A stretch of DNA of 64,000 nt from Microlunatus phosphovorus NM-1 (GTDB taxonomy: Bacteria > Actinomycetota > Actinomycetes > Propionibacteriales > Propionibacteriaceae), in the NCBI RefSeq assembly GCF_000270245.1, contig NC_015635.1, forward strand, positions 992,001 to 1,056,000, read 5' to 3'. Position 1 is the stretch's first letter; each line of letters begins with the position of its first letter. Positions 18,160 to 54,782 of the stretch are shown here, piece after piece. The translations under genes were made by a program, and so were the position numbers. The notes under the pieces were generated by a model. It ran no database searches. It had not been told where the DNA came from and was given only the letters and a program-made list of their open reading frames with translations.

Positions 18160-18207
18160 TAGGGGTATCACCAGGGACTCCCTCGGCCACTCACGGTTAC
18201 GTAGCGT
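18160..18207 (+). promoter_or_regulatory. Regulon promoter for the SDR gene at 18214
   Basis: Right half-site CAGGGACTCCC at 18172-18182, 19 bp spacer, then the -10-like TAGCGT at 18202-18207. The left half (GGGGTA within 18160-18170) is weaker. The ATG follows 6 bp after the -10 box with no ribosome site, so the transcript should be leaderless. This is the same architecture as the promoters at 27.0, 28.0, 29.0 and 31.0 kb. Confidence 0.6.
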
Positions 18208-18213
18208 GGCACC

Positions 18214-18879
18214 ATGCCAGTAATCGCCATCATCGGCGCCGGCCCTGGACTCGGGGCTGCTGCCGCACTGAAGTTCGGCCGCGAGGGCTTCGCCGTCGCA
18301 CTGATTGCCCGCAACCGGGACAAGCTCGCCGCGCTGGAGCAGGCGCTCGCCGCCGACGGCATCGCCGCGAAGGCGTACCCGGGGGACGTCAGCGATCGGG
18401 AGGCGCTGGTCGCTGCCCTCGGTCTCGCGGCGGAGGAGCTGGGTCCGATCGAGGTGCTGCAGTACAGCCCGGTGCCGAGCAGCCAGTTCCTCCGACCTGT
18501 CCTCGACACCACCGCCGCAGACCTGCGGGCGGCCACCGAGTTCTCGATCCTCGGGCCGGCCACCGCCGTCGAGCAGGTGCTACCCGGCATGCTCGAACGA
18601 GCATCGGGCACCATCGTGTTCGTGAACGGGTCGAGTGCGGTCACGCCGAATGGGAAGGTTGCCGGCACCTCGGTCGCCTTCGCCGGGGAGTCCGCCTACG
18701 GCGCCATCCTGCATGACGCAGTCGCTGCCCAAGGCGTGCAGGTGCGGCAGCTCATCATTCCCGGCGCGATCGGCGGTGGCGATCCGCTCTTCGATCCTGA
18801 CGCTCTCGCCGAACGCTTGTGGCAGCTCCACATCGTGCCGGGTCCATTCCGGGTCACGGTCGGTGATGCCCCAGCATGA
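18214..18879 (+). CDS. Short-chain dehydrogenase/reductase (SDR-like)
   Basis: 221 residues, slightly short for an SDR. The Rossmann start is VIAIIGAGPGLGAAAALKFG (G-x-G-P-G-x-G form, residues 3-22), followed by ALIARNRDKLAAL, the NADP-preferring Arg pair. DVSDREALVAAL marks the adenine-binding Asp. The catalytic region is atypical: FVNGSSAVTPNGKVAGTS supplies a Ser, but the expected YxxxK is only loosely represented by ESAYGAILHDAVAA, which lacks the Lys. It may therefore be a non-catalytic or atypical SDR. It overlaps the next gene by 4 bp (ATGA), forming an operon under the regulon promoter at 18160-18207. Confidence 0.8.
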   Translation: MPVIAIIGAGPGLGAAAALKFGREGFAVALIARNRDKLAALEQALAADGIAAKAYPGDVSDREALVAALGLAAEELGPIEVLQYSPVPSSQFLRPVLDTTAADLRAATEFSILGPATAVEQVLPGMLERASGTIVFVNGSSAVTPNGKVAGTSVAFAGESAYGAILHDAVAAQGVQVRQLIIPGAIGGGDPLFDPDALAERLWQLHIVPGPFRVTVGDAPA

Positions 18880-19463
18880 CCGGTCGGATCAGCGGCCTTG
18901 GGCCAGCTGGCGGGGTGCGACGAGTTGTGGCAGTCGCCTTCGTTCTTGCCTGCGCTGGTCTCATCGGCTGCGGTACGGACGACGACAGTCCCGCGCCGAC
19001 CCCCGGCTCCGGCGCGTCCGCTGCTGCCGGGGCCACGTCGACCCCGGCAGAGTCTCCGGCGCCCACCCGCCAGACCTCAGCCGAGGCGACGAGTGAGGCC
19101 TCGGGCGAGGCTCCCATCCGGATCGTGGTCGCCGGCAAGACGCTCAACGCGACTCTGTCGGACAACCCGGCCGCGAAATCCCTCGTCGCGCAGTTGCCGC
19201 TCACCCTCGACTTCGCCGACTTCGGCGGTCAGGAAGTGACGGCCGAACCACCTCGGCCGCTCACGATGGAGGGCATGCCTGATGGAGAGAGCGCACCGGC
19301 CGGAACGATCGGCTACTACGCGCCGGATGGCGTTGTGGTGTTGTACTACACCGACGTCGGCCGCTACAACGGGATCGTCCGCCTCGGCCGCATCGATGGT
19401 GACATCTCGATCCTGAAGGGCTGGGACGAGGCACGCCCGGTGACCATCGAGCGGGCCGACTGA
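18876..19463 (+). CDS. Lipoprotein with cyclophilin-like fold domain
   Basis: 195 residues. A positively charged start, hydrophobic VVAVAFVLACAGLIGCG and the lipobox LIGC predict a lipid-anchored exported protein. A Pro/Ser/Thr/Ala linker spans about 37-80. The C-terminal ~115 residues (IRIVVAGKTLNATLSDNPAA, LPLTLDFADFGGQEV, GTIGYYAPDGVVVLYYTDVG) match the small cyclophilin-like domain (PF18050 type), which lacks proven isomerase activity. The soluble paralogue at 47.1 kb shares GYYAP and VLYY. It is translationally coupled to the SDR. Confidence 0.82.
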   Translation: MTGRISGLGPAGGVRRVVAVAFVLACAGLIGCGTDDDSPAPTPGSGASAAAGATSTPAESPAPTRQTSAEATSEASGEAPIRIVVAGKTLNATLSDNPAAKSLVAQLPLTLDFADFGGQEVTAEPPRPLTMEGMPDGESAPAGTIGYYAPDGVVVLYYTDVGRYNGIVRLGRIDGDISILKGWDEARPVTIERAD

Positions 19464-19467
19464 GCGC

Positions 19468-19929
19468 TCAGGTGGCGAGGTCGGTAGTTCGTTCGAGCGG
19501 GATGCCGGTATGCGCCTCCAGCTTGGCCAAGAGCTCGTTCTGGAATGCCGTGTCGAGTGCGGCCCGATGAGGACGGCGGGCCTTGCGGTGGAACCAATAT
19601 CCGCCGGTGGGAGGGTCGATCTGTGCCGGGTCCGCAGTAGCGAGCCAGGTCTGCGTACGGTGTCCTTCCTCCAGGCTGTCGGAGGCAGCCGGTCCGCCCA
19701 TCCGGGTCGGCACCCAACCGGGATCGACCGCGTGCGCCAGCGCGTCGGTACGGATCCTGGCGAGGGCCATCGCGAGTGTCGTGACATAGAGCTTCGAGTC
19801 GTCGTACGTGCGGCGTCGGCGGCCGGGGTTGCGGGCGTGCAACACCACGTCGTGCCCGGCGTCGGCCAGCTGTCGCACGGTGGCGAGTCCGAGGCCTGTT
19901 GAGGCGCCGGTGACGAGGACGAGTGCCAT
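19468..19929 (-). pseudogene. SDR with large in-frame internal deletion
   Basis: The frame is open for 153 residues, but an SDR of about 250 is expected. It begins with a perfect Rossmann start, LVLVTGASTGLGLATVRQLA and HDVVLHARNPGR, then jumps to RTYDDSKLYVTTLAMALARI, the catalytic Tyr-x-x-x-Lys helix. The NNAG strand, the catalytic Ser and roughly 90-100 residues between are missing. The C-terminal part (VDPGWVPTRMGGPAASDSLE, GGYWFHRKAR) is intact. Without a complete nucleotide-binding and active site it should be inactive. Reading frame and start (ATG 19929) are preserved, so a truncated protein may still be made. Confidence 0.75.
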
Positions 19930-19980
19930 GAGAGGTGTGGCTCCTGATTCTGGCTGGGTGGGCTGCGCGTCCGGGCTGAC

Positions 19981-22532: not shown

Positions 22533-23636
<1,104 letters not shown>

Positions 23637-24374
23637 TCAGCCGAGCTGGTCGGCCGGGCGGAGCAGGATTTCGTTGATGGCGAGGTGGCGGGGGCGGGAA
23701 AGGACGAAGGCGATGATCTCGGCGACCTCTTCGGGTTTGACGGTCGCGGCGTCGTAGCCCTTCTGCGCGGCCTTGCGTGTGGCTTCGTGGGTGATGTGGG
23801 TGGGTAGCTCGGTATCGACGACGCCGGGTTCGATGAGGGTGACTCGGATGTCGGGCAGGAATTCCTGGCGGAGCGACTCGGACCAGCCGTTCAGGCCCCA
23901 CTTGGTGGCGGCGTAGACCCCGTTGGTTGCGCGGGCAGTGCGTCCGGCGACGGAGGAGATGTTGATCAGATCTCCGGCCCCGCCGTCCTTGAGTTGATCG
24001 AGGAAGACCTCGGTGGCGGTAATCGCACCGAGCAGATTCGCCTCGATCATGGTCCGATAGTCCGTATGCTGCTCGGCGGAGAACGGGCCGAGCAGCATGA
24101 CGCCGGCGTTGTTCACCAAGACGTCGGCGCCGCCGAGTTCTTCCTGCACGCGCTCGGCCGCAGCCAGCAGGGAATCCCGGTCGGTGACGTCGGCCCGGAT
24201 CGCGATCGATCCGTTGCCGAACGACTGGGCGAGAGCTTCGATCCGGGCGAGGCGGCGCGCGAGCAGCGCGACTCGGTAGCCGTCGGCGGCCAAGGCACGC
24301 GCGGTGGCCGCGCCGATGCCGGAGGAAGCTCCGGTGATGACCGCGACGCGGCCGGCGCTCTGGTCATCGTTCAT
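23637..24374 (-). CDS. Short-chain dehydrogenase/reductase
   Basis: 245 residues, full classical SDR length. VAVITGASSGIGAATARALA is the nucleotide-binding start (about 10-29), ALLARRLARIEALA suggests NADP, and DVLVNNAGVMLLG is the NNAG strand. The catalytic residues are Ser in LINISSVAGRTARATNG and Tyr/Lys in VYAATKWGLNG. VTLIEPGVVDTEL follows. It belongs to the YdfG-like clade. Start ATG 24374 is preceded by AAGGAGCG. A regulon-type promoter lies upstream (24413-24460). Confidence 0.93.
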   Translation of the reverse strand: MNDDQSAGRVAVITGASSGIGAATARALAADGYRVALLARRLARIEALAQSFGNGSIAIRADVTDRDSLLAAAERVQEELGGADVLVNNAGVMLLGPFSAEQHTDYRTMIEANLLGAITATEVFLDQLKDGGAGDLINISSVAGRTARATNGVYAATKWGLNGWSESLRQEFLPDIRVTLIEPGVVDTELPTHITHEATRKAAQKGYDAATVKPEEVAEIIAFVLSRPRHLAINEILLRPADQLG

Positions 24375-24412: not shown

Positions 24413-24460
24413 ATCGCATCAGGGGATTGACGTCCGAGGAAGGTACTGGAAGTTCCCCCC
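24413..24460 (-). promoter_or_regulatory. Regulon promoter for the SDR at 23.6 kb
   Basis: Half-sites GGAAGGTACTG (24438-24448) and AAGTTCCCCCC (24450-24460) flank a central G. On the reverse strand CAGTACCTTCC is followed by 19 bp and then TGCGAT at 24418-24413, a weaker -10 box than at the other sites. Confidence 0.55.
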
Positions 24461-24497: not shown

Positions 24498-25871
24498 TCA
24501 GGCCGCCCGGCGGAGGCGGAGTGCCGCGACGGCGAGCACCAGGAGCACGGCGCCGGTGACGGCGTAGTCGGTCCGGAGACCGGTCTGGAACGTGGGCTGC
24601 ACGGCGAGGACCGCGCCGAAGATCGCGATGCCGAGAGAGCCGCCCATCTGTCGGGCGGTGTTGAGGATGCCACTGGCGGTGCCGGCCCGCGCGGCGGGGA
24701 CCTGATCCAGGATGAGTGCGGTCACCGGCGGGACGGTGAAGGAGCCGCCGAGCCCGACCGGCACCATGAGTAGCGCTGCGACCAGGATCGGGGCGTCTGC
24801 GGGGAGACAGGCAAGGGCGATCAGGCCGAGTGCCATCAAGACCATGCCACCGATGGTGGTGACGATCTTCCCGAGGCGCTCCATGGCCCGGGCGACGAAC
24901 GGGTTGAATATGGCCACGAGGCCGGTCATCGGCAGGAACAGCAGCCCGGTGACCAGCGCGCTTGCGCCACGCTGCTCCTGGAAGTACAGGCTCTGCACGA
25001 ACACCACGCCATAGAACGCAGCCATGGTGACGAAAGCGATGCCCAGACCGGTGGACACCGTCCCGGAGCGGAAGAGGTCCAGCGGCATCATCGGGTGGCG
25101 TCCACGAGCCTGGGCAATCAGGAAGATGATGGCGCCGATGATGGCGACGACGAACGCGGCCAGCACCTCCGGTGCGGCGTAGCCCACCGAGCCACCCTCG
25201 ATGATGCCGAAGGTGAGCCCGCCGAGGGCAGCGATGGCGGCGATCTGTCCGGCCCAGTCGAACGGCGCGACGCGACCTGCGGACGGAGTGACGCGGGCGA
25301 GCACGATGAGCGCGACGATCCCGACGGGCAGGTTGACGAGGAAGATCCAGCGCCAGCCGAATTGGGTCAGTACGCCGCCCAGGACCGGTCCGGCGGCTGC
25401 GGCGACGGATCCGCCGAGCGCCCAGTAGGTGATCGCGCGTCCCCGCTGCACCGCGTCAAGGAAGGCTTCGCGGATCAGTGCCAACGAGGTCGGGGTGATC
25501 ATGGCCGCGCCGATGCCCTGCACGACACGGCCGGCGATCAGGACGGTCAGGCTCGGGGCTGCCCCACAGGCGGCGGAGCCGGCGACGAACACGGCCATGC
25601 CGATGCCGTAGGCGCGGCGGGCTCCGATTCGGTCGGAAAGCGTGCCGCCGAACAGTTGGAGGGCGGAGAACATCAGGGTGTAGCCGGTGACGATCCATTG
25701 GAGGCCGGACAGTCCGCCGCCCAGGTCGGCGCGGATGTGGGGGAGTGCGACGTTGACGATCTGGGCGTCGAGTGCCACGACGAAGAAGCCGAGCATGGCG
25801 ACGGCGAGGGAGGCACGTGGCCTCGCGGCTTTGACAGCGCGGGTGTTGGGGGTAGCGGTGGTCTCGGACAT
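24498..25871 (-). CDS. MFS multidrug exporter, DHA2-like
   Basis: 457 residues with about 14 hydrophobic segments. TM1 has AMLGFFVVALDAQIVNVALP, the D1 motif of DHA2 exporters. LQWIVTGYTLMFSALQLFGG and TLSDRIGARRAYGIG give motif A. GRVVQGIGAAMITPTSLALI is the motif B region, and GPVLGGVLTQFGWRWIFLVN is motif C. Such proteins export drugs by proton antiport across the cytoplasmic membrane. It is divergent from the AKR at 26.0 kb, with the palindrome at 25947-25969 in the shared 171-bp region. Confidence 0.92.
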   Translation of the reverse strand: MSETTATPNTRAVKAARPRASLAVAMLGFFVVALDAQIVNVALPHIRADLGGGLSGLQWIVTGYTLMFSALQLFGGTLSDRIGARRAYGIGMAVFVAGSAACGAAPSLTVLIAGRVVQGIGAAMITPTSLALIREAFLDAVQRGRAITYWALGGSVAAAAGPVLGGVLTQFGWRWIFLVNLPVGIVALIVLARVTPSAGRVAPFDWAGQIAAIAALGGLTFGIIEGGSVGYAAPEVLAAFVVAIIGAIIFLIAQARGRHPMMPLDLFRSGTVSTGLGIAFVTMAAFYGVVFVQSLYFQEQRGASALVTGLLFLPMTGLVAIFNPFVARAMERLGKIVTTIGGMVLMALGLIALACLPADAPILVAALLMVPVGLGGSFTVPPVTALILDQVPAARAGTASGILNTARQMGGSLGIAIFGAVLAVQPTFQTGLRTDYAVTGAVLLVLAVAALRLRRAA

Positions 25872-25946
25872 GCTCGGCTCTCGGTTCTGTGCGGTGGGAC
25901 GAAGCCAGGCAACCAGTCGAGGACCGGGCGAGGAAGGGACCGGTTA

Positions 25947-27014
<1,068 letters not shown>

Positions 27015-27039: not shown

Positions 27040-27087
27040 CGGGGGCACTCCCAGTTCCTCCCACGCTGCGCCGTCCGCGATTAGCGT
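27040..27087 (+). promoter_or_regulatory. Regulon promoter of MmyB-like regulator 1 (leaderless)
   Basis: CAGTTCCTCCC at 27052-27062, exactly 19 bp, then TAGCGT at 27082-27087. The left half CGGGGGCACTC keeps GG, GG and ACT of the consensus. The GTG start lies 7 bp after the -10 box with no ribosome site. Confidence 0.7.
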
Positions 27088-27094
27088 TGACGTC

Positions 27095-27973
27095 GTGGAG
27101 CACCGAGACGAGGTTTCCGATTTCCTGCGCACGCGCAGGGACCGGATCACGCCCGAGCAGGCGGGCATCATCAGCGGTGGACGCCGCCGGGTGCCTGGCC
27201 TGCGTCGGGAGGAGTTGGCCATGCTCACCGGCGTCAGCGTGGAGTACTACGCCCGGATGGAGCGCGGCGACCTCCGGGGCGTGTCTCTGGAGGTCCTCGA
27301 CGCGCTCGCCCGTGCGCTGAAGCTCGATGAGGCCGAGACCGACCACCTGGCCGACCTCGCTCGGGCCGCGGGGCCGAAACCGCCGCGGCGCCGCCGCAGC
27401 AAGCCTGTGGAGCAGGCCGTGAAACCGACGCTGCAGCGGTTCCTGGACGCGGTCACGGGTGCGCCGATGTGGGTGCGAGACCGACGGCTGGACTTCGTCG
27501 CCGCCAACGCGCTCGGCCGGGCGCTGTATGCGCCGATGCTGGAGGATCCGGCCAATCAGGGCAACACCGCGCGGTTCACCTTCCTCAGCCCCGCCTCCCG
27601 AGTCTTCTTCCCCGACTGGGAGGAGAACGCCGACGACCTGGTGGCGACGCTGCGCACGTACGCCGGGCAGAACCCGCAGGACAAGAGGCTCACCGAGCTG
27701 ATCGGCGAGCTGGTCACCCGCAGCGACACCTTCCGGCACCGCTGGGCCAAACACGACGTCCGTCACCACCGCGACGGGGTCAAGCGCATCCACCACCCGG
27801 TCGTGGGCGATCTGGAGCTTTTCTACGAGGCGATGGAGTTCCCCGCCAACCCGGACTGGTTCATGTTCGCCTTCACCGCCGAGCCCGGATCACCCACCGA
27901 GGAGCGGCTCAAGCTTCTCGGTAGTGTCGCGATCCCGGACGACCTGGTCAGCGACGACCGCTCCGTGGGCTGA
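27095..27973 (+). CDS. MmyB-like HTH regulator 1
   Basis: 292 residues from GTG 27095, matched to the paralogues that start [MV][DE][HN]R. The Xre-type HTH is at about 10-75: FLRTRRDRITPEQAG, RRRVPGLRREELAMLTGVSV and EYYARMERGDLRGVS. The ligand-binding MmyB-type domain (PF17765) covers about 105-280, with MWVRDRRLDFVAANALGRAL, ENADDLVATLRTYAGQNPQD and the EPGSPTEERLKLLGS C-terminal motif. Such regulators often sit beside oxidoreductase genes in actinobacteria; ligands are thought to be lipophilic. It lies in the chain AKR - regulator 1 - regulator 2 - AKR and carries the shared promoter motif, so autoregulation is likely. Confidence 0.92.
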   Translation: MEHRDEVSDFLRTRRDRITPEQAGIISGGRRRVPGLRREELAMLTGVSVEYYARMERGDLRGVSLEVLDALARALKLDEAETDHLADLARAAGPKPPRRRRSKPVEQAVKPTLQRFLDAVTGAPMWVRDRRLDFVAANALGRALYAPMLEDPANQGNTARFTFLSPASRVFFPDWEENADDLVATLRTYAGQNPQDKRLTELIGELVTRSDTFRHRWAKHDVRHHRDGVKRIHHPVVGDLELFYEAMEFPANPDWFMFAFTAEPGSPTEERLKLLGSVAIPDDLVSDDRSVG

Positions 27974-28013: not shown

Positions 28014-28061
28014 GCCAGGGACTGCCAGTGCCTCCCTCCGGGAGACGGCGGTCCCTAGCGT
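28014..28061 (+). promoter_or_regulatory. Regulon promoter of MmyB-like regulator 2 (leaderless)
   Basis: CAGTGCCTCCC at 28026-28036, 19 bp, TAGCGT at 28056-28061, ATG 6 bp later. Left half GCCAGGGACTG retains AGG and ACTG. No ribosome site is present. Confidence 0.7.
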
Positions 28062-28067: not shown

Positions 28068-28931
28068 ATGGATCATCGAGCAGAGGTCGCGGAGTTCCTT
28101 CACAGCCGTCGGGACCGCATCGTGCCCGAGCAGCTGGGTCTGATCGGCGGCGGACGCCGCCGGGTGCCCGGGCTGCGGAGGGAAGAGGTGGCCATGCGCA
28201 CCGGTGTCAGCGTGGAGTACTACGCCCGGATGGAGCGCGGCGACCTTTCCGGCGTCTCGCCCGCCGTGCTGGACGCCCTGGCCCAGGCGCTCAAGCTGGA
28301 CGAGGCGGAGAGCGCGCATCTGCATGACCTCGCTGGAGCCGCGAGCCCCCGGCGGGCGCCACGGCGTCGGCGCACCGAGGAAGAGGGGATCAGGCCCAGC
28401 CTGCGCCGGCTGCTGGACGCGATCACCGGCGCACCGGCGTGGATCCGCGATCGTCGGACGACGATCGTCGCCACGAATCCGCTCGGGCGAGCGCTGTATG
28501 CGCCGATCATCGAGGATCGGGCGAACGGGTCGAACACGGCCCGGTTCATTTTCTTCAACCCCGCCGCGGAGGAGTTCTTCCCCGACTGGAACCGGGTGGC
28601 CGACGAGGTCGTCGCGACCCTGCGCGGCTATGCCGGGCAGTGCCCTCGCGATAAGGCGATGACCGATCTGATCGGGGAGCTGGTGACCCGCAGCGACGAC
28701 TTCTGCACCCGGTGGAGCAGACACGACGTCCGCTTTCACCGGCTCGGCGTCAAGCGCATCCACCACCCGATCGTCGGCGACCTCGAACTGGACTACGAGG
28801 CGCTGGACCTGCCCGCGGACCCGGACTGGTTCCTGTTCGCGCACACGGCCGAGTCCGGCAGTCCCACCGAGGAGCGGCTCCAACTGCTGGGCAGCTTCGC
28901 CGCGTCGGGCCCGGCCGGTGTCGAGCAGTAG
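28068..28931 (+). CDS. MmyB-like HTH regulator 2
   Basis: 287 residues from ATG 28068 and a close paralogue of regulator 1. HTH residues about 10-70: FLHSRRDRIVPEQLG, RRRVPGLRREEVAMRTGVSV and EYYARMERGDLSGVS. The MmyB-type ligand domain has AWIRDRRTTIVATNPLGRAL, VVATLRGYAGQCPRDKAMTD and RLGVKRIHHPIVGDLELDYE. Both regulators keep the KRIHHP segment that the other two in the window lack, so 1 and 2 are a recent tandem pair. The recognition helix region is nearly identical, consistent with the same operator. Confidence 0.92.
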   Translation: MDHRAEVAEFLHSRRDRIVPEQLGLIGGGRRRVPGLRREEVAMRTGVSVEYYARMERGDLSGVSPAVLDALAQALKLDEAESAHLHDLAGAASPRRAPRRRRTEEEGIRPSLRRLLDAITGAPAWIRDRRTTIVATNPLGRALYAPIIEDRANGSNTARFIFFNPAAEEFFPDWNRVADEVVATLRGYAGQCPRDKAMTDLIGELVTRSDDFCTRWSRHDVRFHRLGVKRIHHPIVGDLELDYEALDLPADPDWFLFAHTAESGSPTEERLQLLGSFAASGPAGVEQ

Positions 28932-28959: not shown

Positions 28960-29007
28960 GAGGTGAACTGACAGTTCCTCCCTTGCCGGCGGTCTCGAGC
29001 CTAGGGT
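28960..29007 (+). promoter_or_regulatory. Regulon promoter of AKR-apbE operon (leaderless)
   Basis: CAGTTCCTCCC at 28972-28982, 19 bp, TAGGGT at 29002-29007, ATG 6 bp later. The left half keeps GG and AACTG. No ribosome site precedes the ATG at 29014. Confidence 0.7.
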
Positions 29008-29013: not shown

Positions 29014-29895
29014 ATGAGCGCGAATATCACCTTGAACAACGGCGTCGAGATGCCGGCCCTGGGCTTCGGCGTCTTCCAGACCCCGCCGGACCAGACCGTC
29101 GCCTCCGTCGCCGAGGCGCTGCGCGTCGGCTACCGGCTGATCGACACGGCCGCGTCGTACTTCAACGAACGCGAGGTCGGCGAGGGCATCCGCCAATCCG
29201 GTCTCGACCGGTCGGAGATCTTCATCGAGACCAAGCTGTGGATCAGCGACTACGGCTATGACCAGACCCTGCACTCCTTCGACAAGTCGGCCGGAAAGCT
29301 CGGTGTGGAGCAGATCGACCTGCTCCTGCTGCACCAGCCGCTGACCGCGGACTTCGAGAAGACGATTGGCGCGTACCAGGCGCTGGAGACGCTGCTCGCC
29401 GACGGGAAGGTCCGCGCGATCGGTGTCTCGAACTTCATGCCCAATGTGCTCGAGCGGCTGCTCGCCGAGACCGACGTGGTGCCCGCGGTCAACCAGGTCG
29501 AGGGACACCCCTACTTCTCGGAGCCCGACGTGCAGCAGGCTGATGCCGCGCACGGGATCATCACCCAGGCGTGGTCGCCGATGGGCGGGATCACCAGCTA
29601 CCGCGGAGATTCCAGCCGGTCGACGTTCAACGACCCGGTGATCGGCGAGATCGCGACCTCGCACGGCAAGACGCCCGCGCAGGTGATGCTGCGCTGGCAT
29701 CTGCAGGAGGGCCGTTCCGCGATCCCGAAGTCGGTGAAGCCGGAGCGGATCGCCGCCAACTTCGACGTGTTCGACTTTGACCTGTCCGCCGACGAGCTCG
29801 GCCGGATCGACGCCCTGGACACCGGGGTGCGCAGCGGCCCGGACCCCGACATCATCACCCTCGAGTCGTTCCACCGCGATATCCCGGAGGCCTGA
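29014..29895 (+). CDS. Aldo/keto reductase (AKR5, diketogluconate-reductase-like)
   Basis: 293 residues from ATG 29014. NITLNNGVEMPALGFGVFQT is the beta hairpin of the AKR5 type. RLIDTAASYFNEREVGEGIR carries the catalytic Asp and Tyr, IFIETKLWISDYG the Lys and LLLLHQPLTADFE the His. VRAIGVSNFMPN and AIPKSVKPERIAANFDVFDF are the typical cofactor segments of prokaryotic 2,5-diketogluconate reductase relatives. It is followed 16 bp later by apbE, so the two are one operon driven by the leaderless promoter. Confidence 0.93.
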   Translation: MSANITLNNGVEMPALGFGVFQTPPDQTVASVAEALRVGYRLIDTAASYFNEREVGEGIRQSGLDRSEIFIETKLWISDYGYDQTLHSFDKSAGKLGVEQIDLLLLHQPLTADFEKTIGAYQALETLLADGKVRAIGVSNFMPNVLERLLAETDVVPAVNQVEGHPYFSEPDVQQADAAHGIITQAWSPMGGITSYRGDSSRSTFNDPVIGEIATSHGKTPAQVMLRWHLQEGRSAIPKSVKPERIAANFDVFDFDLSADELGRIDALDTGVRSGPDPDIITLESFHRDIPEA

Positions 29896-29911: not shown

Positions 29912-30775
29912 GTGCATCGCTTCACGGCGATCGGCACCGGCTGGCAACTCGACACCGACCATCCGCTGACCGACGGGCTGCGGATCGAGATCGCCGAGCT
30001 GTGTGCTGACTTCGACCGGGCGTGGTCGCGGTTCCGCACGGATTCGACGATCGCCGAGATCGCCTCCGCGGCCGACGGGGGACGGTTCGAGTTCCCCGCC
30101 CGCGACCTGCCCCTGCTGGATCTGTACGACCGATTGTTTGCCGCGACGGACGGAGCAGTGGATCCGCTGGTCGGGCGCGACCTCGAGCTGCTCGGCTATG
30201 ACGCGCGGTACACCCTCACACCCGATCGGGCCGGCCTCGCCGACCGGGTCCCGGACGTCTGGACGCGCGACGTCCGTCGGGACGGCAACGCGTTCGTCAC
30301 GGCCCGCCCGCTGGTGATCGACGTCGGCGCGGCAGGGAAGGGTCACCTCGTCGACCTCATTGCCGCGACGCTCCGGGAGCATGGCATCGACCGGTACGTG
30401 GTCGACGGCAGCGGCGACCTGCATCATGCCGGACCCGAACCGATCGTCGTCGGCCTCGAGCACCCCACCCGGCCCGATCGGGTGATCGGCACCGCACCGC
30501 TGGCGAATGCGGCGCTGTGCGCCTCGGCGATCACCCGTCGCGCCTGGGGCAGAGGGCTGCACCACGTTCTCGACGGGCGGACCGGCAGGCCCGTGTCCGA
30601 CGTCGTGGCGACCTGGGTGATGGCTGCCGACGCAGCCACTGCCGACGGGCTGGCGACCGCCCTGTTCGTCGCCGAACCGGAGCGGCTCGAGATGTTCGAG
30701 TTCTCCTGGGTGCGCATGCTCGCCGACGGGCGGGTGCAGTGGTCCAACGACTTCCCGGGAGAGCTTTTCCTCTGA
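29912..30775 (+). CDS. apbE: FAD:protein FMN transferase (ApbE-like)
   Basis: 287 residues from GTG 29912, where homology begins (VHRFTAIGTGWQLDTDHPL). ApbE landmarks: FDRAWSRFRTDSTIAEI (about 32-48), GAVDPLVGRDLELLGYD, the nucleotide/Mg site PLVIDVGAAGKGHLVDLIAA (about 131-150), VDGSGDLHHAG, and HHVLDGRTGRPVSDVVATWV with ADAATADGLATALFV. ApbE transfers FMN from FAD to a Ser/Thr of extracytoplasmic FMN-binding domains. No signal peptide is seen in this short actinobacterial form. Its likely substrate, the FMN-binding lipoprotein at 33.0-33.4 kb, is a pseudogene lacking the part that normally holds the flavinylation site. Confidence 0.88.
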   Translation: MHRFTAIGTGWQLDTDHPLTDGLRIEIAELCADFDRAWSRFRTDSTIAEIASAADGGRFEFPARDLPLLDLYDRLFAATDGAVDPLVGRDLELLGYDARYTLTPDRAGLADRVPDVWTRDVRRDGNAFVTARPLVIDVGAAGKGHLVDLIAATLREHGIDRYVVDGSGDLHHAGPEPIVVGLEHPTRPDRVIGTAPLANAALCASAITRRAWGRGLHHVLDGRTGRPVSDVVATWVMAADAATADGLATALFVAEPERLEMFEFSWVRMLADGRVQWSNDFPGELFL

Positions 30776-30797
30776 TCCGGATCCGAACAGGTGACAG

Positions 30798-30944
30798 ATG
30801 TGCAGCTCAGTAGTCATGGGGCGGCGTGTCGCGCCGGTTGGGAAGGTTGAGTCGCGGATTTGTCACGCTTCCGGCGCCGGCGGCTGCGCCGATGGTTTCA
30901 ACGAAGCTCTCGCCAAGATCCGTGAGCAGGCGGCCGGCAGCTGA
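30798..30944 (+). CDS. Possible 48-residue protein
   Basis: An ATG at 30798 opens a 48-codon frame ending ADGFNEALAKIREQAAGS. No ribosome site is close. It lies in the 257-bp gap between apbE and the next regulon promoter. The helical end looks protein-like, but it may be the tail of a decayed gene. Confidence 0.25.
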   Translation: MCSSVVMGRRVAPVGKVESRICHASGAGGCADGFNEALAKIREQAAGS

Positions 30945-30977
30945 CAGTCCCCCTCGGTAGTGGGAAGAAGCTGGCGA

Positions 30978-31025
30978 TGGGTGTACCAGCAGTTCCTTCT
31001 CCGCGCCGCGGCTGCCGCTTAGCGT
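30978..31025 (+). promoter_or_regulatory. Regulon promoter of the broken NAD(P)-binding gene (leaderless)
   Basis: CAGTTCCTTCT at 30990-31000, 19 bp, TAGCGT at 31020-31025, ATG 31033 seven bases later. The left half is degenerate. Confidence 0.65.
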
Positions 31026-31032
31026 CGACCAT

Positions 31033-31826
31033 ATGGTTCACGAAGCGCACGCATCGGCAGACAGCTCCAGCACGACCAACTCGACGAACGCGGTGCTGGT
31101 CGTCGGAGCCAGCGGCAGCATCGGACGGCACGTCGTCGCGGAATCGCTGCGAGCCGGCTTCGAACGAGAGCCTTGGTGCGCGATCCGGAGCAGGCATCCC
31201 TGTTTCCGAGCAGCGCCCGAGTCGTCGTCGGGGACCCGAGCGACCCCGAGGTGCTCCACGACGCCCTCGACGGCGTCGTCGGAGTGGTGCTCACCCAGGG
31301 CACCTACCGCGATGCGGACGCCGAGCGGGTCAACTACCGGCCGGTGAAGGCGGTGCTGGACGCGTTGCAGGCTCCGGCTCGGATTGCGCTGATGACCACC
31401 CTCGGCGTCACCAAGCCGACCACTGGTCACGACTGGAAACGCCGCGCGGAGCGGCTCGTGCGCGCCAGCGGCCTGCCGTACACGATCGTGCGGCCGGGCT
31501 GGTTCGACTACAACGAGCCCGACCAGCACCACCTGGTGCTGTTGCAGGGGGACCGCCGCTGGGCCGGTTCCCCCGATGACGGCGTCATCTCCCGGGCCCA
31601 GATCGCGCAGGTGCTCGTGGCCGCGCTGACCTCCGACGCCGCCGACCACAAGACCTTCGAGCTGGTCGCCGAGAAGGGCAATGCCCCGGCCGACCTCGAT
31701 CCGCTGTTCGCCGCGCTGGCTCCTGACACGGCGCTGGACGGCCCTTACGACCGGGACAATCTCGCGCTGGCCGATGAGCCGGCCGCGGTGATCAGCGACC
31801 TCGCCGCGCTCCGCGGCCGCTTCTGA
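31033..31826 (+). pseudogene. NmrA/SDR-type NAD(P)-binding protein, frameshifted
   Basis: The first frame gives NAVLVVGASGSIGRHVVAES followed by LRAGFER; the second continues RDPEQASLFPSSARVVVGDP and runs to 31826 (PYTIVRPGWFDYNEPDQHHL, SRAQIAQVLVAAL, KTFELVAEKG). Together they make a complete atypical SDR of the NmrA kind. At about 31164-31167 the sequence CGAGAGCC would read on correctly as CGAGCC, so two extra bases (GA) explain the shift. It could be a true mutation or a sequencing error. The stop overlaps the next ATG (TGATG), which suggests former coupling to the ferric-reductase-like gene. Confidence 0.85.
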
Positions 31827-33133: not shown

Positions 33134-33394
33134 TGACGTTGTCGCTGAGAGTCACGGTGACGTCAAGGTAGGAGGGCCCGCCGCCGTACGTGCCCATGGC
33201 GCTATAGGTGCCGTCCTGGTAGTCGGATGTCGCCGTAGGGCCATCAGGTGACGTTTCCGCCGTTGCGGTGGACCGAGACGCAGACGGAGATGACGTCGGA
33301 CTGGCGCCTGCGGAGAGCACCCGGCTAGCGGCGCCAGCGTGGCGAGAGTCGCCATCGTCGCCTAGGCCGTGTGAGTCAGCTTCTCGGTTCGCAC
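32994..33394 (-). pseudogene. FMN-binding lipoprotein, triply damaged
   Basis: From GTG 33394 the frame reads VRTEKLTHTA, a TAG stop (33364-33362), then ATMATLATLAPLAGC, a lipobox. After the Cys region the frame shifts and continues as SPTSSPSASRSTATAETSPD, then YQDGTYSAMGTYGGGPSYLD and VTVTLSDNVITAVTVEPQAE, the start of an FMN-binding (PF04205) domain. The domain stops after SLDYQERFAAVAAAV, where it collides with the ferric-reductase gene; the SGAT/S flavinylation end is missing. Nonsense, frameshift and 3' deletion together make it dead. It keeps a perfect regulon promoter 7 bp from its GTG. Confidence 0.8.
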
Positions 33395-33400
33395 CCGTCA

Positions 33401-33448
33401 AACGTAGGCAGCTGGTGGCAGATCAAGAAGGAACTGTCACTACACCCT
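33401..33448 (-). promoter_or_regulatory. Regulon promoter of the FMN-binding remnant (leaderless)
   Basis: On the reverse strand CAGTTCCTTCT (33436-33426) is followed by 19 bp and TACGTT (33406-33401). The GTG at 33394 comes 6 bp later. The other half-site is partly kept (CACTAC). Confidence 0.65.
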
Positions 33449-47147: not shown

Positions 47148-47501
47148 TTAGGGTGCGGCCGCAATTCGGATCCGGGTCCCGTCCGGCAGCGCGCGCAGCG
47201 CGTTCAGGTCGTAGTCGAACTGCCCCATCACGACCAGCCCCGGCCATCTCCCCGGACTGTCGTAGTAGAGGACCAGTCCCTGGCTCGGGGCGTAGTAGCC
47301 GATCTCGCCAGGCCCAGGCGCGTCCGCCCTCGGCACGCCACGCAAAGTCAGAGAGCTTCCAAGAGGGGCCACCTTCTCGACCTGGTTGAAGTCGTTGAAG
47401 ACCAGTTCGAGGGGGAGCAACTCGAACAGCTCACGCGCCACCGGGTGGTCGTACAGGTCACCGGTGACCAGCGTGTCATTGATCGTCAGCTCGATCTGCA
47501 T
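47148..47501 (-). CDS. Cyclophilin-like fold protein
   Basis: 117 residues, essentially one domain. IELTINDTLVTGDLYDHPVA (2-21), LPLELVFNDFNQVEKV (29-44) and GEIGYYAPSQGLVLYYDSPG (about 66-85) match the small cyclophilin-like domain (PF18050 type), as in the lipoprotein at 18.9 kb. No signal peptide, so it is cytoplasmic. The role is unknown; in other actinobacteria such genes often neighbour oxidoreductases. It is preceded by a regulon-type palindrome (47557-47579). Confidence 0.85.
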   Translation of the reverse strand: MQIELTINDTLVTGDLYDHPVARELFELLPLELVFNDFNQVEKVAPLGSSLTLRGVPRADAPGPGEIGYYAPSQGLVLYYDSPGRWPGLVVMGQFDYDLNALRALPDGTRIRIAAAP

Positions 47502-47530: not shown

Positions 47531-47579
47531 ACCGTAACCAGCTGACGAGGAGACGAGGAAGTCCCTGCCAGTACCTCCC
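47531..47579 (-). promoter_or_regulatory. Regulon promoter of the cyclophilin-like gene
   Basis: GGAAGTCCCTG (47557-47567), centre C, and CAGTACCTCCC (47569-47579) form the palindrome. On the reverse strand CAGGGACTTCC is followed by 20 bp and TACGGT (47536-47531), 29 bp before the ATG at 47501. Confidence 0.6.
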
Positions 47580-47721
47580 TGACAGAGACTCCCACCGTGT
47601 GAGCGCGCGGGTTGACTGGGCTTGGGCCGCACAGGAGGCGCTCGATCTTGTCGGCTTCGCACTATCTGTATCCCGAGCGAAGCCGACAATCCTGAGCAGG
47701 ACCACCCGGGCTCGCGGGACA

Positions 47722-48021
47722 TCAGGCGACCGAGTGCAACTCGAAGCGGAGTCCGAGGGCGTTGGTGACCTTGAGGATGGTCGACCAGGTGGGATTGCCG
47801 TCCGTGGAGAGTGCCTTGTAGAGGCCGTCGCGGCTCATGCCGACGCGACGGGCGAGTTCACTCATGTTCTGCGAGCGGGCGATGATGCCCAGTGCGTGCG
47901 GAACTGCGGTCGGATCTTCGAGGGAGTCTTCGAGGGCGCCTTCCAGAAACGCGGCGACGTCGTCGAGGTCCTTGAGGTAGTCGGCGGCATCGAATTTCTT
48001 GTACTTCTCGCTCAGGTCCAT
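47722..48021 (-). CDS. Antitoxin of HI1420/HigA type
   Basis: 99 residues. KFDAADYLKDLDDVAAFLEG (9-28) and the Xre-like HTH NMSELARRVGMSRDGLYKAL with STDGNPTWSTILKVTNALGL (about 52-91) fit the addiction-module antidote family TIGR02684. It neutralises the RelE/ParE toxin and normally represses the operon. Its start overlaps the toxin 3' end by 10 bp; toxin-first order is usual for this class. AGGAGGG lies just upstream of the ATG. Confidence 0.93.
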   Translation of the reverse strand: MDLSEKYKKFDAADYLKDLDDVAAFLEGALEDSLEDPTAVPHALGIIARSQNMSELARRVGMSRDGLYKALSTDGNPTWSTILKVTNALGLRFELHSVA

Positions 48022-48350
48022 GGTGTGCCCTCCTTCTCTTCAGCCTTCTGCTTATCGGCCGACCATTCCGCGGCCAGTTGGTGAGCCTTCTTGATGTCCT
48101 TCTGCTGCGTCGACTTATCGCCGCCGCATAGGAGGAGGATCAAGACTTCTCCGTCTTGCAGGTAGTAGATCCGGTATCCCGGACCCACATTGAGGCGGAG
48201 CTCCGATAACCCTTTGCCGATCGGCCTGACGTCCCCCGGATTGCCCTGGGCTAGCCTGTCGAGCCGGCGGAGGATGCGGGACTTGCCCCGTTGGTCTTTC
48301 AGTCTCTGCAGCCACGAGTCGAATTCGTCAGTGCGGACGACGTCGAGCAT
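48012..48350 (-). CDS. RelE/ParE-family toxin of HI1419 type
   Basis: 112 residues from ATG 48350; the longer frame upstream is not homologous. FDSWLQRLKDQRGKSRILRR (about 10-29), LAQGNPGDVRPIGKGLSELR and GPGYRIYYLQDGEVLILLLC with GGDKSTQQKDIKKAHQLA match TIGR02683-type toxins, which are mRNA interferases of the RelE fold. The C-terminal tail is charged. The partner antitoxin follows with a 10-bp overlap. Both look intact. Confidence 0.93.
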   Translation of the reverse strand: MLDVVRTDEFDSWLQRLKDQRGKSRILRRLDRLAQGNPGDVRPIGKGLSELRLNVGPGYRIYYLQDGEVLILLLCGGDKSTQQKDIKKAHQLAAEWSADKQKAEEKEGTPWT

Positions 48351-48450
48351 GTGTCGACTATAGCTGACACTCTCGGAGGTGGTCGAGCGGGCGCGCAATG
48401 GGCGCCACGACCTGTTCGAACAGTCCGATCTCCAGAGCAACACCGGGAGG

Positions 48451-49347
48451 TCAGCAGCCGGCGTCCGCTCGGCCTCGATAGTCCAGCATCGTGTCGCCGT
48501 ACTCGCTGGCGGCCCAGGAGGCGAGCAGATGCATCCGCTCCGCCGATGGCGAACCGGGTTCGGCGGCGTAGATGGTGAGAGTCAGCCCTGGTTCAGCGGC
48601 CATCTCCAACCCTTCGAAGGCGAGGGTCAGCTCGCCCACCACAGGATGCCGGAAGGTCTTGAAGCCGGTGCCGTGGTGCCGGACGTTGTGCGCCGCCCAC
48701 AGGCGGCGGAAGTCCTCGCTGCGGGTGCCCAGTTCGCCGATGAGATCGTGTAGCTCCTTGTTGTGCGGATCCCGGCCGGCTTCGGTACGAAGGATCGAGA
48801 CGGTGATCTCGGCGAAGGAGTTCCAGTCCGGATGGAACTGATACGCGCGCTCGTCGAGAAACGCGAAGCGCGCCAGGTTCGGCGGTTGCCCGGGCATGTC
48901 GTAGACGTCGGAGTAGAACGCCCGGGCCAGCAGGTTGACTGCCAGCAGGTCCATGCGCCCGTTGCGGACGAACGCGGGGCCGGCCGTGACGGCATCCAGC
49001 GTCCACTGCAGGCTCGGGTGCGGGCTCCAGCACTTCGGGCTACGGCGCCGGGGCGGGCGAGCGACCGGGCTGGCCGCGTGGGCAAGGTCGAACAGATGCG
49101 CCCGCTCCGCATCATCGAGACGTAGCGCCTTGGCCAGGCTGTCGAGCACTTCCGGCGAGGCGCCGCTGATCCCGCCGCGTTCGAGCTTGGTGTAGTACTC
49201 CACGCTGACGCCGGCAAGCGTGGCCACCTCACTGCGGCGCAAGCCGTTCACTCGGCGGCTCGCGCCCGGTGGTAGACCGACGTCCTCGGGGGTGATCCGG
49301 GCACGCCGCGAGGTGAGGAACTCGCGTACCTCCGCCCGGTTGTCCAC
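48451..49347 (-). CDS. MmyB-like HTH regulator 3
   Basis: 298 residues from GTG 49347, aligned with the VDNRAEV start of the paralogue at 54.8 kb. HTH at about 8-75: FLTSRRARITPEDVG, RRVNGLRRSEVATLAGVSVE and YYTKLERGGISGASPEVLD. The MmyB-type ligand domain has FVRNGRMDLLAVNLLARAFY, ITVSILRTEAGRDPHNKELH and the AEPGSPSAERMHLLASWAAS end. It is divergent from the zinc alcohol dehydrogenase/MFS operon and carries a regulon-type palindrome in the shared region. Confidence 0.92.
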   Translation of the reverse strand: MDNRAEVREFLTSRRARITPEDVGLPPGASRRVNGLRRSEVATLAGVSVEYYTKLERGGISGASPEVLDSLAKALRLDDAERAHLFDLAHAASPVARPPRRRSPKCWSPHPSLQWTLDAVTAGPAFVRNGRMDLLAVNLLARAFYSDVYDMPGQPPNLARFAFLDERAYQFHPDWNSFAEITVSILRTEAGRDPHNKELHDLIGELGTRSEDFRRLWAAHNVRHHGTGFKTFRHPVVGELTLAFEGLEMAAEPGLTLTIYAAEPGSPSAERMHLLASWAASEYGDTMLDYRGRADAGC

Positions 49348-49353: not shown

Positions 49354-49402
49354 ACGGTATGCCCTGCTGGTGAGCCTGGGGGAGTCCCTCTGAGTACCTC
49401 TA
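49354..49402 (-). promoter_or_regulatory. Regulon promoter of MmyB-like regulator 3 (leaderless)
   Basis: GGGAGTCCCTC (49380-49390), centre T, GAGTACCTCTA (49392-49402). On the reverse strand GAGGGACTCCC is followed by 20 bp and TACCGT (49359-49354), with the GTG start 6 bp later. It may also control the divergent alcohol dehydrogenase at 49493. Confidence 0.6.
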
Positions 49403-49492
49403 TCAGCAGAGACTCCCGGGGTGGCGAGGAACGTGCTGAGGTTGGGGCTGTACCCACCACGTCCGAAGAACCCACTCTTTCGAGGAACAGTT

Positions 49493-52283: not shown

Positions 52284-52652
52284 GTCGCAGGCGCCTCGAC
52301 GTCGGCCAATGAGGCGTCGGCTCCGCCACTCGATCGGCGGCACTAGACCAACGGCTCTACGAGCGAAGAGCACGCCGATTTCCAGCCAGCACGAATGCCC
52401 GGCAGCCTGGTCCACGACCAAGAAGTCGTCGGACCCGGATCGCTACCGTCAAGGCCACAGGTCCCGTGCTCGCCGAGTGGACGCCCAATCCTGCTTTCCA
52501 CGAAACTGCTCGCCCGTGTCAACCGCACCATAGACCTCGTCGTAGCGACGCTCTACGTTCCGGTGCGATCTGCAACGCGGCTGGGGAATCCTGAGTGCGA
52601 GATCGGATGCGATCAGGCCGCATGTGGGTGAGTTTTGGAACACCTCGATGTA
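52284..52652. other. Intergenic region without recognisable gene
   Basis: No frame in these 369 bp shows coding character or a known motif on either strand. It lies between the stop of the VOC gene and the stop of the convergent acetyltransferase gene. Confidence 0.55.
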
Positions 52653-53156: not shown

Positions 53157-53368
53157 AGGCGGAGGGCATCAGGAGACGCAGTCTCGCCGGCGGGGCCGAA
53201 CGCCATCGAGGCCCGTCCAGGGTCGAGATAGGTGGATAGCTGTCGAGGTAGAGCTGGGCGGGCTGTTCGCGGTCCGCACTGGTGAGGGCCCGGATGTGGA
53301 CGTCGAACAGGGGGAGCGGGCACGGCCGCGATGTCGGGGGATTGGCCAACGAGAGTGCTGGTGGGCAT
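53130..53368 (-). pseudogene. GNAT acetyltransferase, frameshifted fragment
   Basis: ATG 53368 with GAAGGACAG upstream opens MPTSTLVGQSPDIAAVPAP; the next frame reads VHIRALTSADREQPAQLYLD, and the first frame resumes with STYLDPGRASMAFGPAG. Two shifts within 100 bp and loss of the acetyl-CoA-binding half mark a pseudogene. The N-terminal IRALTSADREQPAQLYL is typical of GNAT beta 1-alpha 1. Confidence 0.55.
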
Positions 53369-53677
53369 GGCTGTCCTTCAAAATGAGTGGTGAGTAACAA
53401 CGCGAGGTGTCACATCACTGACGAGCCATGCCGTGATTGTAGTCACCAGCAGCGCCTAGCAGGCAGCCAGCCGTCGCGTTCGCAAGCCGTTCGCCGTCCG
53501 GATCGTCGCGAGGTGACGGGAGGAGTAGTAGTCGCCCTCTCGATGTCGGGCGTTCCGCTGAATGGCAGACTCGTGGCAGGGATTCGGTGCGAGGTCGCAC
53601 CAGATCCTTCCCAGGACCCGCGGATCAGCCGATCGTGGATGAGGGGCCTTCTCGATGGCGATCACACGGCCGAGTCT

Positions 53678-54640
53678 TCACCACCAGTAGGCGGGTTGGG
53701 TGGTGTAGGGCTGCTCGAGTCGGGTGATCTCGTCGTCGGTGAGGGTGATGTCGAGGGCGGCGACGGCGTCTGCGAGATGGTGGGGCTTGGTGGCGCCGAC
53801 GATGGGAGCGGCCACGACCTGCTTGGACAGCAGCCAGGCGATCCCGATCTGCGCCATCGGCACTCCGCGTTCCGCGGCGATCTGCTGCACGGCGTCGACG
53901 ACCGGCTTGTCGATGTCGAGGTCGAAGGTCTTGGCGACCTGATCGCTGTCGCCGCGCCGGGTGTGCTGGCCCCATGGCCTGGCGAGTCTTCCCTTGCCGA
54001 GGGGTGAATAGGGGATCGCGCCGACGCCCAGGTCGAGGCACATCGGCAGCATCTCGCGCTCTTCCTCGCGCTTCAGCAGGTTGTACTGGTCCCCCATCGA
54101 GACGAACCGCGTCCAGCCACCCAGGACGGCCGCGTGCTGCAATTTGGCGAACTGCCAGGCCCACATCGACGACGCACCGATATAGCGGACCTTGCCGGCC
54201 TTGACCACGTCGTGCAGGGTCTCCATGGTCTCCTCGACCGGGACATCGTCGTCGAAACGGTGGATCTGATAGAGATCGATGTAGTCCGTCCCGAGCCTGG
54301 TCAGCGAGGCGTCCAGCTGCTCCAGAATCGCCTTGCGGGACAGCCCAGAACCGCCGGGCCCATCGTGCATCTTGTTGTGGACCTTGGTGGCCAGCACGAT
54401 GTCCTCGCGTCTGGCGTACGTCTTGATCGCCCGGCCCACGAACTCCTCCGAGCTACCTCCGCCATAGCCGTTGGCGGTGTCCCAGAACGTCACGCCCAGC
54501 TCGACGGCCTGCCGGAAGAACGGCTGCGCAGCCTCCTCGTCGAGGGTCCAGGCGTGGAAGCCAGGGTTTCCGAAGCTCATGCATCCCATGCCGATCCGGC
54601 TGATCTTGAGCCCGGACCGTCCCAACCGTTGATATTCCAT
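53678..54640 (-). CDS. Aldo/keto reductase
   Basis: 320 residues from ATG 54640, where the family start MEYQRLGRSGLKISRIGMGC begins; a longer frame to 54748 would cross the operator. TFWDTANGYGGGSSEEFVGR supplies Asp and Tyr, IVLATKVHNKMHDGPGG the Lys and IDLYQIHRFDDDVPVEETME the His. VGAIPYSPLGKGRLARPWGQ and PIVGATKPHHLADAV complete the barrel. It is close to the AKR members annotated as aryl-alcohol or voltage-channel-beta-like reductases. It is divergent from MmyB-like regulator 4. Confidence 0.93.
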   Translation of the reverse strand: MEYQRLGRSGLKISRIGMGCMSFGNPGFHAWTLDEEAAQPFFRQAVELGVTFWDTANGYGGGSSEEFVGRAIKTYARREDIVLATKVHNKMHDGPGGSGLSRKAILEQLDASLTRLGTDYIDLYQIHRFDDDVPVEETMETLHDVVKAGKVRYIGASSMWAWQFAKLQHAAVLGGWTRFVSMGDQYNLLKREEEREMLPMCLDLGVGAIPYSPLGKGRLARPWGQHTRRGDSDQVAKTFDLDIDKPVVDAVQQIAAERGVPMAQIGIAWLLSKQVVAAPIVGATKPHHLADAVAALDITLTDDEITRLEQPYTTQPAYWW

Positions 54641-54733
54641 CTGACCTGTCCTTCTTTCCTTCATCGCTGCCGTGCGCCATACCTCAGAGATCAGTTCACC
54701 TGGAAGTGGCGACGCGCTGGGAGACTCTGCCAT

Positions 54734-54782
54734 AGGTGGTAATGGCAATGTCTCCCGGCGCTGGCTGAAGCTGCCGTACCGT
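54734..54782 (+). promoter_or_regulatory. Regulon promoter of MmyB-like regulator 4 (leaderless)
   Basis: AGGTGGTAATG (54734-54744), centre G, CAATGTCTCCC (54746-54756), then 20 bp and TACCGT (54777-54782). The GTG at 54791 is 8 bp further, without ribosome site. It lies in the 150-bp region shared with the divergent aldo/keto reductase. Confidence 0.6.

Follow-up and report, generated by a model that had tools for sequence, protein, structure and literature searches.

What reads a conserved box that stands at twelve sites in a cluster of oxidoreductase and regulator genes? This is the question raised by the stretch of DNA analysed here (the window), which comprises 64,000 nucleotides of Microlunatus phosphovorus NM-1 (contig NC_015635.1, positions 992,001 to 1,056,000 of the forward strand; window coordinates below count from its first letter). 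Our analysis indicates that the box probably serves as operator for the cluster's own MmyB-like (MltR-type) regulators, here called MmyB-1 to MmyB-4, with the bound dimer activating the regulators' own genes and their neighbours.

The box is an imperfect palindrome with the core GGNACTG-N-CAGTNCC and with TCCC at the promoter side. The majority sequence of the twelve aligned sites reads GGGGGTACTG-n-CAGTnCCTCCC, followed by 19 or 20 bp and then a -10-like box. A preliminary description of the window had listed these sites, some of them by the left edge of the 23-bp box instead of by the half-site, and had claimed CAGTNCCTYCC or close variants, a fixed spacing, and a -10 box that is mostly TANNNT. 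All twelve sites were confirmed as carrying the motif, the spacing is 19 bp at nine sites and 20 bp at three, and TANNNT is present at 11 of the 12 (eight at 19 bp and three at 20 bp), the exception being site 24438 with TGCGAT at 19 bp. When spacers of 8 to 44 bp were considered, TANNNT occurred at one further place only, once, at 31 bp; its background frequency is 0.00076 per position. A chance probability for the -10 box at the twelve listed sites would be circular because the choice of sites had partly used that box. The palindrome claimed for the sites is evident at six of them (5 to 6 of 7 core pairs symmetric) and weaker at the other six (1 to 4 of 7). The gene classes said to lie downstream, namely aldo/keto reductases (AKR), short-chain dehydrogenases/reductases (SDR), cyclophilin-like proteins, and all four MmyB-like regulators of the window, are indeed found there. 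The sequence between box and -10 is not conserved, either at the window sites or in the external promoters described below. For the genes at 18214, 27095, 28068, 29014, and 31033 and for MmyB-3, the start codon lies 31 to 32 nt past the box and 6 to 7 nt past the -10, so their transcripts are probably leaderless.

A genome scan had been named beforehand as the refuting test, and it gave a placement that is not random. With up to one mismatch, CAGTNCCTYCC occurs 28 times in the window versus 8.8 expected from shuffles; exact matches number 34 in the 5.68-Mb genome (21 for a reversed control pattern), and 8 of these 34 fall inside the 64-kb window (P = 4e-9). TANNNT follows at exactly 19 bp in five of the eight exact matches of the window versus none of 22 examined outside (26 exist), a comparison that is independent of the earlier choice of sites. 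A genome-wide role for exact half-sites was rejected, all but one of the 22 outside copies examined, out of the 26, being chance-like; the copy at 3488264 has a good palindrome yet, on the strand examined, no TANNNT at 19 bp. A sequence-only model of the twelve window sites (R1), for which 150 of 3935 candidates were scored in the own genome, gave 16 matches at E <= 10. These were the twelve training sites, the reverse reading of site 23580, and three others. Of these three, the match at 3045941 (E 0.002) precedes an MmyB-like gene, that at 1084325 (E 0.03) a zinc dehydrogenase, with TTGAGT at 19 bp, and that at 2634789 (E 0.08) an AKR gene. Model matches thus concentrate in the window. The genome holds 11 MmyB-like genes, four of them in the window, each behind a site.

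The same box emerges when the window is left out altogether. We took 80 MmyB-like loci from named genomes (50 to 74% identity to the query, the top 80 among at least 590 candidates) and searched the 90 nt before their start codons by expectation-maximisation, the start codon being the match start or, where that was no start codon, the nearest in-frame upstream start. The motif found de novo is ccGGGTACTGgCAGtgCCTCCCT, the same box as in the window, with a log-likelihood of 825 (25 starts) compared with 73.4, 83.7, and 69.9 for three shuffles (8 starts each). The box is present at a score above 8 in 71 of the 80 relatives; 69 of these 71 have TANNNT at 18 to 20 bp (18 bp in 5, 19 bp in 52, 20 bp in 12), and in 68 of the 71 the start codon lies 30 to 33 nt past the box.

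A second model (R2) was built from 69 of these external promoters, which were picked for TANNNT, so that this part of it is built in. In the own genome, R2 gave 24 matches at E <= 5, of which 12 lie in the window and correspond to 10 of the 12 sites plus two reverse readings. Sites 28026, 25959, 54746, 18172, 28972, and 27052 were recovered at E <= 0.06, and sites 23580 (E 0.13), 49380 (0.32), 47557 (0.34), and 30990 (1.1) more weakly. Five further matches precede an AKR gene (2634788, the best of all), MmyB-like genes (3045941, 554727, and 4093540), and the zinc dehydrogenase (1084332, E 0.8), whereas seven unassigned matches are probably chance. Among the model matches elsewhere in the genome, the best precede MmyB-like genes and an AKR gene, the zinc dehydrogenase being weaker, and the models detect the box before 7 of the 11 MmyB-like genes. 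Upstream of another of these genes, near 3852201 (L049), lies GAGGGACACCC, followed by 20 bp, TACCGT, and a start codon; its sequence makes this a possible variant of the box missed by the models.

Other genomes show the same combination of box, spacing, and gene classes. An R1 scan of 57 genomes (the own genome and relatives) gave a match at E <= 0.01 in 18, the own genome included. Outside the own genome it yielded 29 rows. Loci were available for 26, and the first gene downstream is MmyB-like in 15 (by sequence), AKR in 4, SDR in 3, medium-chain dehydrogenase/reductase (MDR) in 1, CMD in 2, and major facilitator superfamily (MFS) in 1. Several rows come from a single genome (G006), which has an AKR-MmyB-AKR cluster resembling that of the window. 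In a phylum-wide R2 scan (296 genomes, strict filter, 20 candidates scored per genome), the 18 rows outside the own genome comprised 15 MmyB-like genes (by sequence), one AKR, one cyclophilin-like, and one unassigned. Pfam was run on 27 non-MmyB genes that stand behind sites outside the window and gave AKR (13), SDR (3), MDR (3), CMD (2), MFS (1), cyclophilin-like (1), and cupin (1), with no family for 3; two of these 27 are from the own genome, and 10 belong to additional sites within the 80 loci and are thus near an MmyB-like gene by sampling. AKR, SDR, and MDR genes make up a few per cent of such genomes.

All four MmyB-like proteins of the window have an N-terminal XRE-type helix-turn-helix (HTH; HTH_31/HTH_3) and a C-terminal MLTR_LBD domain (PF17765, E 2e-54 to 6e-58). 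The predicted structure of MmyB-2 (mean pLDDT 67, with about 85 to 90 only in part of the DNA-binding domain) has helices at residues 38 to 45 and 49 to 56, so that residues 50 and 53 lie inside the second HTH helix, the one that reads DNA in CI/434-type repressors. Covariation was measured as mutual information between variable protein and operator columns in 94 regulator/operator pairs (87 outside the own genome), with residue numbers following MmyB-2. Among the columns tested, the top pair is residue 53 with base -7 (Z 34); the next (Z 16 to 13) are residue 50 with -9, +7, and -7 and residue 53 with +7, and the best ligand-domain column reaches Z 12. Where residue 53 is threonine, valine, or isoleucine, the -7/+7 pair is G.C in 67 of 68 cases; where it is serine, the pair is T.A in 5 of 5. 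The sites of MmyB-3 (T53) and MmyB-4 (I53) are G.C, as expected, and sites 25959, 28972, 30990, and 33426 have T at -7 with C at +7. When four operator columns were permuted within 13 clusters, one of which holds 61 of the 94 pairs, Z remained at 10.3 and 9.7. From the occurrence of the box before most of the relatives and its covariation with the recognition helix, we strongly infer that MmyB-like proteins bind it.

The preliminary list of sites did not include a divergent half of the module, and the recurrence of the box across the family is not visible from the window. In 70 external loci, offsets were counted along the opposite strand, starting at the edge of the box that faces the promoter. 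On that strand a half-site CAG...CTCCC with no more than one mismatch stands at offset 28 in 25 instances, and no other offset among the 120 has more than 4. This opposite half-site begins 16 bp beyond the centre of the first operator, and CAGNNACTCCC with up to two mismatches is found there in 29 of the 70 loci. An initial search for TANNNT after it gave two occurrences; alignment then showed TTNNNT at the same spacing. Of these 29, 17 have TWNNNT, mostly TTNNNTGG, after 19 bp and 2 have it after 20 bp, with none at the remaining spacers between 10 and 29; the T-W pattern was picked after viewing the aligned sequences, and the spacing was not. Divergent open reading frames (ORFs) could be picked for 59 of the 80 MmyB-like loci, and among them are genes for MDR (22), AKR (9), MFS (9), and SDR (4) proteins. 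In the window, the divergent elements have as candidate targets an EmrB-like MFS gene (CGGTCCCTTCC, 19 bp, TTGCCTGG), the MDR gene at 49493, and the AKR gene ending at 53678; MmyB-3 is divergent from the MDR gene and MmyB-4 from the AKR gene, and MmyB-1 and MmyB-2 stand in tandem on one strand. The sites and genes of the window are as follows.

18160-18182, + strand: operator (site 18172), 19 bp, -10 TAGCGT at 18202-18207; leaderless-like ATG at 18214.
18214-18879 and 18876-19463, + strand: SDR gene, then cyclophilin-like gene, behind site 18172.
23580-23602, - strand: operator (module 23555-23602), 6 of 7 core pairs symmetric, 19 bp, -10 TAGGCT; before the AKR gene 22533-23519 (-).
24438-24460, - strand: operator (module 24413-24460), 19 bp, weak -10 TGCGAT; before the SDR gene 23637-24374 (-).
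25947-25969, + strand: operator (site 25959, module to 25994), 19 bp, -10 TACCGT; before the AKR gene 26043-27014.
25932-25942, - strand: divergent half-site CGGTCCCTTCC (module 25907-25942), 19 bp, TTGCCT at 25907-25912; before the EmrB/DHA2-type MFS efflux gene 24498-25871 (-).
27040-27062, + strand: operator (site 27052, module to 27087), 19 bp, -10 TAGCGT; leaderless-like GTG at 27095 of MmyB-1.
27095-27973, + strand: MmyB-1, HTH_31/HTH_3 and MLTR_LBD (E 6e-58).
28014-28036, + strand: operator (site 28026, module to 28061), 19 bp, -10 TAGCGT; leaderless-like ATG at 28068 of MmyB-2.
28068-28931, + strand: MmyB-2, HTH_31/HTH_3 and MLTR_LBD.
28960-28982, + strand: operator (site 28972, module to 29007), 19 bp, -10 TAGGGT; leaderless-like ATG at 29014.
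29014-29895 and 29912-30775, + strand: AKR gene, then ApbE gene, behind site 28972.
30978-31000, + strand: weaker operator (site 30990, CAGTTCCTTCT, module to 31025), 19 bp, -10 TAGCGT; ATG at 31033.
From 31033, then 31826-33133: NAD(P)H-binding gene (apparent frame break near 31165), then FAD/ferric-reductase-like gene, behind site 30990.
33426-33448, - strand: weaker operator (CAGTTCCTTCT, module 33401-33448), 19 bp, -10 TACGTT; before a small degraded-looking FMN-binding-like ORF, 32994-33401 (-).
47557-47579, - strand: operator (module 47531-47579), 20 bp, -10 TACGGT; before the cyclophilin-like gene 47148-47501 (-).
47583-47593, + strand: divergent half-site CAGAGACTCCC, 18 bp, TTGACT at 47612-47617; without an obvious target gene.
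49380-49402, - strand: operator (module 49354-49402), 20 bp, -10 TACCGT; predicted to serve MmyB-3.
48451-49347, - strand: MmyB-3, start codon GTG at 49347, HTH_31/HTH_3 and MLTR_LBD.
49407-49417, + strand: divergent half-site CAGAGACTCCC (module to 49442), 19 bp, TGAGGT; before the zinc dehydrogenase (MDR) gene, likely ATG at 49493, end at 50515.
54734-54756, + strand: operator (site 54746, CAATGTCTCCC, module to 54782), 20 bp, -10 TACCGT; predicted to serve MmyB-4.
54785-55672, + strand: MmyB-4, HTH_31/HTH_3 and MLTR_LBD.
54719-54729, - strand: divergent half-site CAGAGTCTCCC (module 54693-54729), 20 bp, TGAACT at 54693-54698; before an AKR gene, likely 53678-54640 (-).

Two of the genes behind these sites look broken, and both stand behind the half-site variant CAGTTCCTTCT (sites 30990 and 33426). 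In the NAD(P)H-binding gene (31033-31826), a Rossmann-like start is in frame from 31033 and the remaining domain (profile position 25 onward) is in frame from 31173. In the FMN-binding-like ORF, the lipobox-like start and the domain are in different frames, the C-terminal part of a relative (L139) is missing, and the 3' end overlaps the convergent FAD gene. This ORF gave no family match in Pfam or NCBIfam; its name reflects the look of the sequence and 60% identity over 62 residues to the relative, a box-carrying gene of Cellulomonas hominis. ApbE, the FAD/ferric-reductase-like membrane protein, and the FMN-binding-like ORF lie under the same boxes (29912-33401), which suggests a flavinylated electron-transfer chain. 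Past the half-site at 47583-47617 lie two minus-strand genes resembling a toxin-antitoxin pair, one Gp49-like (48012-48443) and one antidote-like (47722-48021), perhaps inserted where the target gene was.

The geometry of the module suggests how it would work. Measured from the leaderless-like start codon, taken here as the probable transcription start, the centre of the operator is about 43 bp upstream, near the -41.5 of class II activators. The preliminary description had placed the operator over the -35 region on account of the fixed spacing and had taken activation or competition with polymerase as likely. At the usual place of a -35 element (17 to 18 bp before the -10), the box edge has, by eye, CTCCCT-like letters and not TTGACA. 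A site centred where a -35 would be, with none seen, argues for class II recruitment, and since the distance is fixed in regulator and target promoters and on both strands of divergent pairs, we infer direct polymerase contact, that is, activation by the MmyB-like proteins. In the mechanism that we propose, an MmyB-like dimer would bind the palindrome GGNACTG-N-CAGTNCC through its XRE-type recognition helix and recruit RNA polymerase by contact with sigma region 4, the promoter-side TCCC serving, at a guess, as a directional contact for sigma. The same geometry would drive the regulator's own leaderless-like gene, giving autoregulation, and the neighbouring genes for aldo/keto reductases, short- and medium-chain dehydrogenases, cyclophilin-like and flavin proteins, and the efflux pump; in divergent regulator/enzyme pairs, the opposite half-site with its 19-bp spacing and weaker TTNNNT would serve the other gene. 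The trigger is likely a hydrophobic, perhaps carbonyl-bearing, compound held in the PAS-like domain. Because the genes comprise carbonyl reductases, zinc dehydrogenases, flavin proteins, and efflux, they suggest a response of the cluster to reactive carbonyl or quinone-like compounds.

Several results weigh against this reading. R2, which is independent of the window, misses sites 24438 and 33426, and four other window sites score at E 0.1 to 1.1, a range overlapping that of the seven unassigned matches (E 0.4 to 3.3). No model match precedes 4 of the 11 MmyB-like genes of the genome, 9 of the 80 relatives lack the box at a score above 8, and these 80, as the best of more than 590, are close relatives of the window proteins; under its strict filter, the phylum scan matched only 14 of the 296 genomes, the own genome included. 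Of the 41 loci without a recognisable opposite half-site, 12 nonetheless have TWNNNT at 19 to 20 bp and another 4 have it at a different spacer. Regulators with alanine at residue 53 (17) are mixed (T.A in 9, G.C in 2, other in 6), and the own sites of MmyB-1 and MmyB-2, both A53, are G.C, opposite to the trend. Permutation within 37 narrow clades cuts residue 53 to Z 3.4 to 3.5, with some ligand-domain columns higher (best 5.6), and common ancestry may therefore account for the covariation. Finally, TCCC is conserved on the promoter side only, for which dimer symmetry gives no explanation.

The last of these points bears on who reads the box. Another conserved factor, or an alternative sigma factor for which the box is the -35 element, might do so, the MmyB-like genes being merely targets; in the external MmyB promoters, CTCCC is conserved only in the promoter-side half, where a -35 element would be (about 1.2 to 1.4 bits per position versus 0.4 to 0.9 at the mirror positions). 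We consider this improbable, given that the core has inverted symmetry, that the -10 is of the common TANNNT type, and that the operator covaries with the recognition helix of the protein encoded downstream of it. A promoter for an extracytoplasmic function (ECF) sigma factor combines a non-symmetric -35 with an ECF-type -10, and such a reading was rejected in view of the inverted-repeat core and the TANNNT -10. That the window sites are copies left by a recent local duplication, without a regulatory role, is hardly credible: four MmyB-like paralogues and several AKR genes do share one cluster, but the box and its spacing recur elsewhere before AKR, SDR, MDR, CMD, and cyclophilin-like genes, and the spacers from box to -10 are not conserved in sequence.

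The sign of the regulation is a separate matter. MmyB-like proteins could act at the same boxes as repressors, a dimer blocking polymerase at -35 and leaving upon ligand binding or oxidation. The operator does overlap the -35 position, and the XRE-family regulator MsrR of Corynebacterium glutamicum is described, in the part of its report drawn on here, as repressing itself and a divergent MFS gene until released by oxidation (PMC7532634). On the other side, no -35 hexamer is seen by eye under the box, which fits dependence on an activator; MmyB is described as an activator in passages of a 2012 paper (PMC3406030); and one spacing to the -10, used by regulators and targets alike, would be expected more with polymerase contact than with steric blocking. 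We therefore regard repression as unlikely, and operators activated by the cluster-encoded MmyB-like proteins as the preferred explanation.

As far as our searches show, the box, its spacing, the opposite half-site, and the covariation are new. A literature search, with most subscription journals outside its scope, found no paper with this operator, spacing, or covariation, and in the literature searched no published operator for MmyB-like regulators was found except the mention of B-boxes for MmyB. MmyB-like regulators are numerous in actinomycetes and mostly uncharacterised, and they sit beside reductase and antibiotic genes; the passages of the 2012 paper used here count 16 in Streptomyces coelicolor, 36 in a S. 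hygroscopicus strain, and more than 1000 in total by that year (PMC3406030). With a common operator, a fixed promoter geometry, and a candidate recognition residue, their targets become predictable. We lean, with some reserve, toward the broader view that actinobacterial MmyB-like regulators share a portable promoter module, made up of a symmetric operator with a TCCC tag for direction, 19 bp, TANNNT, and the start codon, with its back-to-back version for divergent enzymes and a recognition code linking residue 53 to base pairs -7/+7, from which targets could be read and which would build local self-activating regulons for carbonyl reduction and efflux. If this is true, the targets of those more than 1000 mostly uncharacterised regulators would be readable from sequence. 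The box promoters are also ready-made reporters for ligand finding, which makes the question of what is sensed directly testable.

Comparison with known systems places the module among several partial likenesses. In lambda CI at PRM and in other class II activators, a dimer of Cro/CI-type HTH proteins acts on a promoter with a poor -35 from an operator whose centre is near -42, as proposed here; CI lacks such a ligand domain, whereas here the regulator and many targets share one geometry and the transcripts look leaderless. MsrR shares with the window regulators, at the XRE-family level, a position over the divergent promoters of itself and an MFS gene and differs, according to the same part of its report, in being a thiol-based repressor (PMC7532634). 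MmyB itself belongs to the methylenomycin cluster of S. coelicolor; the 2012 passages give it an XRE-type HTH and a PAS-like ligand domain and present it as an activator suggested to recognise pseudo-palindromic B-boxes (PMC3406030). Its cluster makes an antibiotic, whereas the targets here are reductases. The solved relative MltR (3pxp), to which a window protein has a weak sequence match (E 0.008), is reported in those passages to hold a fatty acid (PMC3406030). For the MltR family (PF17765) at large, they describe MmyB-like genes divergent from SDR and MDR genes with a shared upstream region, and give no operator motif for these SDR/MDR-linked genes (PMC3406030); the divergent ORFs of our 59 loci have the same association.

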